DNA from: Eremomyces bilateralis CBS 781.70
Taxonomy: Eukaryota; Ascomycota; Dothideomycetes; Eremomycetales; Eremomycetaceae
Direction: 5' to 3'
Length of the DNA: 64,000 nucleotides
Assembly (NCBI RefSeq): GCF_010015585.1
Contig: NW_022985071.1
Coordinates: 209,292-273,291 of the forward strand
The notes below the pieces were generated by a model, which saw only the letters and a program-made list of their open reading frames with translations, was not told the DNA's origin and made no database searches. A program made the position numbers and the translations under genes. This document shows positions 16,880 to 17,919 of the stretch, piece by piece (positions within the stretch are counted from its first letter, which is position 1; every line of letters begins with the position of its first letter).

Positions 16880-17919
16880 TCACCAGAAGTCATCTTCCTC
16901 ATTCGCCCCTCGATTCTGATTACTCGACTGCTCCATCGCCTCCTCCGAAAACAAATCGTCGTACGCGTGATCCTTCTGATACGCCTTCTCCTTCCGCTCC
17001 TTCGCGATCCGCACCTCCTCCTTCGACTGTAGATCTTGTCAACACGGCCCTGCAATCGGAAGACCTCTCAAGTGCGGTGAATTTAAACTTACCCTCGCCT
17101 GCCGCGCCGCCTGATCCCGCCGCCGCAAGTCCTTCTGCCGGTCCTCTTTCTCCTCCCGGAGATTTGGATGCCGTTCGACTTTCGTCTTGTTCAGGCGATT
17201 GACGATGGGGTTTTCGCGTTGGGGGATGTGGATTTTCTTGACCTGATGGCCGTTAGATACCTTATGACAAATTGTTACGATGATCTCGAACGGTACCTTC
17301 TTGTTGTCCTTGAAGCCCACCTGGCCAGCGTCCATACGGCCGTCTTTCTTGAGGTTGGACCATGGAGTGTAGATGACGGTGACGTTGTCCTTTTTGTTTC
17401 CTGGTTAGGAGGTTAGACTAGATTACACGAACACTTCGATCTGGATGATCTCCCAGGTGGCATACCTTCTATAGAATTCGCCTTCGTCAACTGCGCGCAG
17501 TCTTCCAACAACTCTGTCGGAATTTCATTCCACGTCTGCCCGTCCGGCAACCGCAAGTAGACATGTGCACTCGACAAATTGTCGACGTGGAACTATATCG
17601 AGTACTCTAGTCAACCCAATACTCCGTGCCGCCATAGAAAATTTATCGAGCTTACCCTACAGCGCAGTCAGCACCCATATAAACCCACCCAGACAGGCTC
17701 GAAGTCGGCGACAACACTCACCACACATCCTCCTCCCAGCCAAATTTAATCAATTCTTCATCTGATACAGAAACATCTGTTAGCCTAATCCGTTCTTCCT
17801 CGATAAATCGGCGGATGCGTGCCGCGAAGGGATCGTGAGCATGTACTTTCAAATTTGTCTTTCCCCACATAGATGAAGGCGGAGGGCGACACCACATTGC
17901 TGGTGAAGAAATAGACCAT
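16880..17919 (-). CDS. CCDC25/Jlp2 homologue (NFACT-R, formerly DUF814, domain), with a 1-nt exon
   Basis: Model of eight exons: 17919-17847, 17761-17722, 17656 (one base), 17592-17466, 17400-17297, 17242-17093, 17026-16880; the seven multi-base exons plus the single G give 213 residues. The start [12 protein letters not shown], then [79 protein letters not shown] and the [20 protein letters not shown] block track the CCDC25 family almost end to end, and the length (human about 208) fits. The C-terminal third is a charged coiled coil ending DDFW. Known relatives include human CCDC25, a membrane-reported DNA sensor, and yeast Jlp2; the NFACT-R fold is linked to RNA or ribosome contacts. Its role in moulds is unknown. 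The conserved Trp-Phe-His codons (TGG TTC CAC) can only be formed if the single G at 17656 is kept. Confidence 0.9.
17593..17721 (-). other. Twin introns separated by a one-nucleotide exon
   Basis: On the minus strand the first intron is 17721-17657 (65 nt, donor GTGAGT, CTGAC branch, acceptor CTGTAG). One G (17656) follows, then a second intron 17655-17593 (63 nt, donor GTAAGC, TTGAC branch, acceptor ATATAG). Removing the 129 bases as a single unit would give TG joined to TTC and break the frame; retaining the second intron meets an in-frame TGA. Both units have normal length and complete signals. Confidence 0.8.

Follow-up and report, generated by a model that had tools for sequence, protein, structure and literature searches.

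A putative one-nucleotide exon in the CCDC25 gene of Eremomyces bilateralis, with signs of the same junction across Pezizomycotina

The CCDC25 gene and its exons

The window analysed here is a stretch of 64,000 nucleotides from the genome of Eremomyces bilateralis CBS 781.70. The CCDC25 gene is located on its minus strand, from 17919 to 16880, and has seven exons when a single base (G17656) is counted as one of them. The spliced product retaining this base has 213 aa. It contains a full NFACT-R_1 domain in Pfam (E 1.2e-34), and its best match to the solved CCDC25 chains has an E of 2.9e-60; by domain and homology it belongs to CCDC25 (NFACT-R_1). The deposited protein of the same strain (P0001) is identical to the predicted product at 213/213 residues, and contains a Val-Trp pair including Trp38. 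The initial annotation of the gene as a CCDC25 homologue is borne out by the domain match, the solved chains and this identity; its placement of the DNA in Eurotiales was wrong, since E. bilateralis belongs to Dothideomycetes, Eremomycetales. The features of the gene are listed below by their positions in the window.

17847..17919, minus strand: CCDC25 coding exon 1 (ATG at 17919), translation identical to P0001
17762..17846, minus strand: ordinary intron 1, 85 nt, donor GTACAT
17722..17761, minus strand: coding exon 2, 40 nt, ending in TG (bases 1-2 of the Trp38 codon)
17657..17721, minus strand: intron A, 65 nt, GTGAGT...CTGTAG
17667..17671, minus strand: candidate branch point CTGAC of intron A, by motif match only
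17656..17656, minus strand: putative one-nucleotide exon G, base 3 of the Trp38 codon TGG, sole GT-AG route to the correct mRNA
17593..17655, minus strand: intron B, 63 nt, GTAAGC...ATATAG
17610..17614, minus strand: candidate branch point TTGAC of intron B, by motif match only
17466..17592, minus strand: coding exon after the intron pair, beginning TTC CAC (Phe39-His40)
17297..17400, minus strand: coding exon
17093..17242, minus strand: coding exon
16880..17026, minus strand: last coding exon and stop codon, from the translation

Elsewhere in the gene, a possible acceptor (TTGCAG, last base at 17050) precedes the assigned one in the last intron (17027-17092, minus strand); splicing there would lengthen the mRNA by 23 nt and put it out of frame. 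A second NFACT-R_1 gene is found in the same genome (G000:C2:1827514-1827855) within an open frame of 1,097 aa, which, judged by its size, may be of the Rqc2/Tae2 type.

Splice routes around the single base

The coordinates and lengths of two complete GT-AG introns (65 and 63 nt) around the single G17656, as given in the initial annotation, were confirmed. Exactly one base lies between the AG end of intron A and the GT start of intron B, and this base is required for the reading frame of the conserved protein. The Trp38 codon would be split over three exons, namely the TG of exon 2, G17656, and the boundary immediately 5' of TTC (Phe39). All of the partial or skipped products stop early in the 214 codons. 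As had been proposed, the removal of all 129 nt breaks the frame, with a stop at codon 73, and the retention of intron B leads to a stop at codon 53; with intron A or both introns retained, the stop falls at codon 39. The mis-spliced products would thus probably be degraded. The deposited protein is consistent with the presence of G17656 in the mRNA through splicing at both predicted introns.

Splice paths with 0, 1 or 2 introns were enumerated; an intron had to start with GT or GC, end with AG and span 40 nt or more. The one-nucleotide exon model reached the top score (384) among 10,359 paths, 524 of which were open and in frame, although the scoring target P0002 contains Val-Trp, and the score thus favours models that keep this pair. 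The runners-up were a path scoring 362, which loses the Val, and a path scoring 357 with a single 134-nt intron (17726-17593, donor GTGTGG), which loses Val-Trp. The latter is in frame and open. It would stand for one normal intron behind a weak donor and a protein truly devoid of the pair; however, the motif recurs in animal CCDC25 and, in the form WFH, in bacterial relatives, with both of which Trp-Phe-His is shared, and the deposited E. bilateralis protein has Val-Trp.

Among the one-step routes (GT, GC, AT and TG donors), only a 128-nt TG-AG intron (17720-17593), which keeps G17721 instead, yields the identical mRNA; among the two-step GT-AG routes, introns A and B alone do so, in either order. 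The earlier claim that the codons can be rebuilt only by keeping G17656 therefore holds for GT-AG introns, and fails once this TG-AG intron is admitted. Since both give the same mRNA, reads joining 17722-17656-17592 cannot separate them. With the TG-AG intron, the inner AG-G-GT would be decoration, a reading that appears very improbable. A TG donor falls outside the known U2 classes; the strong donor GTGAGT one base upstream is left unexplained, and so are the inner second donor, acceptor and branch points, as well as the translated read-through P0198 described below, which has one solution.

The inner signals were compared with chance by dinucleotide shuffling of the 129-nt interval, 20,000 times and with fixed ends. 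AGNGT by itself, leaving 45 nt or more on either side, occurred in 3,346/20,000 shuffles and AGGGT in 1,205/20,000; an AG-N-GT whose two halves each had donor, YAG and branch-point motifs occurred in only 3/20,000. A one-base assembly error in the exon beside one long intron (129-130 nt) would turn these signals into coincidence and would leave the failure of relatives at the same junction unexplained; it is extremely improbable. One detail of intron B counts against the two-intron model: two AGs are located at 17608-17605, a few bases downstream of the candidate branch point.

Donor strength was estimated without annotation. In 264 kb of the E. bilateralis genome, made up of the window and 20 other stretches, GT hexamers were ranked by their enrichment ahead of CTRAC...YAG motifs. 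The most enriched hexamers were GTAAGT and GTGAGT. Among 240 GT hexamers, the donor of intron A (GTGAGT) ranked 2nd, that of intron B (GTAAGC) 18th and the rival GTGTGG 219th. The predicted pairing with the 5' end of U1 was -11.1 kcal/mol for donor A, and -8.9 kcal/mol for donor B with intron A present (-9.2 after its removal). The other four introns of the gene ranged from -3.0 to -10.0 kcal/mol, and GTGTGG gave -3.3. Intron 1 (17762-17846, minus strand) has a poor donor, GTACAT (rank 198/240, predicted pairing -3.0 kcal/mol), which is much weaker than the donors flanking the one-base exon. Introns were also called ab initio from hexamer-scored flanks. Only 4 were obtained in the window, and the 31 with a branch point in the 264 kb had no recognisable donor consensus; both sets were rejected. 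The donor scores from the 264-kb set placed GTGTGG at the 58th percentile, between A (32nd) and B (65th-71st), and were set aside as giving no separation.

The initial annotation also proposed that the excision of intron A creates the donor of intron B, by the logic of stwintrons or recursive splicing. The analysis did not support this. Donor B is already complete with intron A still in place, as the two predicted pairings (-8.9 vs -9.2) suggest; it is one base past the ligation point and stays the same after ligation, so no donor is regenerated there. The enumeration gave no nested two-step route, and neither intron interrupts the donor, branch point or acceptor of the other. A [D]-type stwintron or recursive splicing is accordingly very improbable here, although the introns are almost back to back and stwintrons have been reported from Pezizomycotina (PMC5639578). 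The CCDC25 introns resemble the stwintrons described there in being two close U2 introns of Pezizomycotina for which successive removal and intron definition would apply; they differ in that neither interrupts a splice element of the other. Judged from its sequence, the feature is a one-nucleotide exon and not a stwintron.

In the one-nucleotide exon model, two independent and complete U2-type introns would flank G17656. Each of them is probably recognised over its own short length (intron definition), and the one-base exon would therefore need no binding as an exon. Only one base separates acceptor A from donor B, so the two removals should be successive; stepwise removal is likely for steric reasons. 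Either order would be workable, and the sequence does not force one.

Comparison with known one-nucleotide exons

One-nucleotide exons are already known, also in fungi. The plant APC11 and VPS55 exons were reported to be conserved throughout the land plants and to have been missed by annotations (PMC8831610), and that of APC11 was demonstrated by reporter constructs (PMC4674806). In Fusarium CYP621A, a G exon in AGGGT was reported with 18 SRA reads (PMC12940212). The putative CCDC25 exon is like the plant cases in having a single base between two canonical introns, in being apparently absent from many annotations, and in its probable conservation with intron loss in some lineages, which for APC11 are the monocots (PMC4674806, PMC8831610). 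It is like CYP621A in being fungal, with the same AGGGT core, a G exon within a conserved motif, and wrong annotations (PMC12940212). However, the plant exons belong to other genes and another kingdom, and are described as verified by RNA-seq, RT-PCR or reporter; the Fusarium exon belongs to another gene, a rarely expressed P450, and was reported with reads from one genus. The putative CCDC25 exon, in contrast, belongs to a conserved gene with signs in eight classes. No earlier report of it was found in the literature searched, with most subscription journals outside the scope. New are the gene concerned, how deep the exon seems to reach within Pezizomycotina, and the breakage of relatives' gene models at precisely this junction.

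The Val-Trp junction in relatives

Among the 120 nearest homologues (query included), 16 internal indels were found, and 14/16 are located at residues 37-38: nine are exact losses of Val-Trp and five are other changes. A second search, deliberately aimed at Val-Trp-less proteins, added 75 proteins. The resulting 195 proteins include 67 without exactly Val-Trp, six with other indels at the site, and 122 intact ones; 67/195 is not a frequency because of the aim of the second search, and 14/120 is the fairer rate. The intact pair in most of the relatives (122/195) does not show the exon there. The Val-Trp-less models come from eight classes of Pezizomycotina, as assigned by the taxonomy of one or two representatives per class: Pezizomycetes (Wilcoxina), Geoglossomycetes, Lichinomycetes, Sareomycetes, Lecanoromycetes, Eurotiomycetes, Dothideomycetes, and Sordariomycetes. 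Sister annotations also disagree over the pair in Phyllosticta, where P0125 and P0071 are otherwise identical over 211/211 aligned residues. The initial suggestion was that the pattern may be fixed in its lineage; such fixation seems to extend much further than was guessed.

These changes could arise from gene prediction. A gene finder unable to use the one-base exon in TG/GT...AG/G/GT...AG/TTC (slashes mark splice boundaries) would have to take another in-frame route. If the donor shifted by four bases, to the second GT in GTNNGT, a GTRAGT donor would bring a stop (TAA or TGA) into frame; the Val codon would then supply the GT, with loss of Val-Trp. The observed loss fits such a donor, joined to the phase-0 acceptor before TTC. 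With a GTTYGT or GTGGGT donor, no stop would arise and one residue would be added. An extra Phe (WF) is present in two Sodiomyces proteins (P0049 and P0078), which was read by hand as TG+GTTY/GT, and an extra Trp (WW) in Remersonia (P0104), read by hand as TG+GTGG/GT. The Aphanocladium protein P0233 reads VC-AHIY, by hand a TG joined to AG/Y GCA CAC inside the next exon. These three kinds of change fit a phase-2 donor TG/GT by hand reading, not scored against chance.

Three Val-Trp-less models have a counterpart among unannotated ORFs that contain the pair: P0123 (Exophiala dermatitidis) is identical to P0166 over 210/210 aligned residues, P0138 (Glonium) is identical to P0027 over 211/211, and P0118 (Cenococcum) agrees with P0017 at 210/211. 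The ORFs have no break at the position of the modelled intron, and therefore probably derive from spliced RNA. Judging by these pairs, Val-Trp is present in the proteins whose gene models lack it. The single intron with donor GTGTGG could have drawn on the 67/195 deposited relatives modelled without the pair; but in the three matching cases the ORFs retain it, and together with the low rank of the donor and the shared Trp-Phe-His this makes such an intron highly improbable.

Fragments were searched with ten slices of the exon after the intron pair; 120 proteins were listed, 118 of them new. Among these 118, 55 read VW/FH (or a variant) unbroken, some of which are Pleosporales-like, a result that counts against a shared exon; 53 lack the searched motif, most of them starting inside the exon; and ten are other cases. 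One fragment, P0198, nearest to Tolypocladium (Hypocreales), appears to be a translated read-through, with 41 residues upstream of the Phe (...MLTIAQGKS...HQLTPSQ/FHVD). Read from its amino acids, with the bases deduced, it has one solution compatible with AG/G/GT, in which intron B would be 50 nt and two branch points would lie at the same distance before both acceptors. Only 1/3,000 shuffled peptides was compatible with AG/G/GT. P0200 (...NIQ/FHAD) and P0281 (...HLQ/FHVD) fit a CAG/TTC acceptor, but neither is long enough to be sure of reaching the G. No full AG/G/GT solution was found in P0245, P0226, P0235 or P0281, some of which are too short or outside the group, and P0235 (...LFR/FHAD) fits an ordinary phase-2 intron instead. 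Scans of viral contigs and genome contigs found no fungal DNA encoding the relatives.

From the broken gene models we infer a shared one-nucleotide exon, with support from the E. bilateralis DNA and from the one translated read-through. It is considered likely that Trp38 is split over three exons by independent introns flanking G17656, an arrangement probably inherited from a Pezizomycotina ancestor and lost in some lineages. A fuller history is also favoured, with less confidence: the exon would have arisen before the classes of Pezizomycotina separated, would have been kept by selection on Trp-Phe-His in many lineages and lost with the introns in others (the Pleosporales-like and Leotiomycetes-like fragments), and would be mis-modelled in dozens of deposited genomes. 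If so, no other one-nucleotide exon known in fungi would be as widely conserved, and an exon of minimum size would have persisted in a conserved gene for much of the time over which a large fungal group evolved. This would also argue that exons of this size are spliced reliably in filamentous fungi and that intron definition is enough for it, and would provide a natural test of splicing for two introns sharing a one-base exon. Many deposited CCDC25 proteins would then be without two residues of a conserved motif through a systematic error. The distribution of the intron pair among species would let gain, loss and splicing order be tested in culturable fungi.

Some of the fragments may reflect such losses. 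P0203-P0207, P0210, P0211 and P0214 are unbroken, and their nearest proteins are such as P0103 and P0178 (Pyrenochaeta, Bimuria), which suggests that both introns may have been lost in lineages of this kind. P0221, nearest to Amorphotheca (P0164), also runs through unbroken.

Other arrangements at this site were also observed. The protein P0087 (Elsinoe australis) has five extra residues (VRDMI) between Trp and Phe. These could be read as GTN CGN..., with a phase-0 donor directly after TGG; speculatively, this lineage may have kept only intron B. In P0235, P0279 and P0284, an Arg directly precedes the Phe. This would fit AG/G TTC, meaning that other lineages would have a phase-2 intron of the ordinary kind at the Trp codon, and intron A may accordingly be older than intron B.
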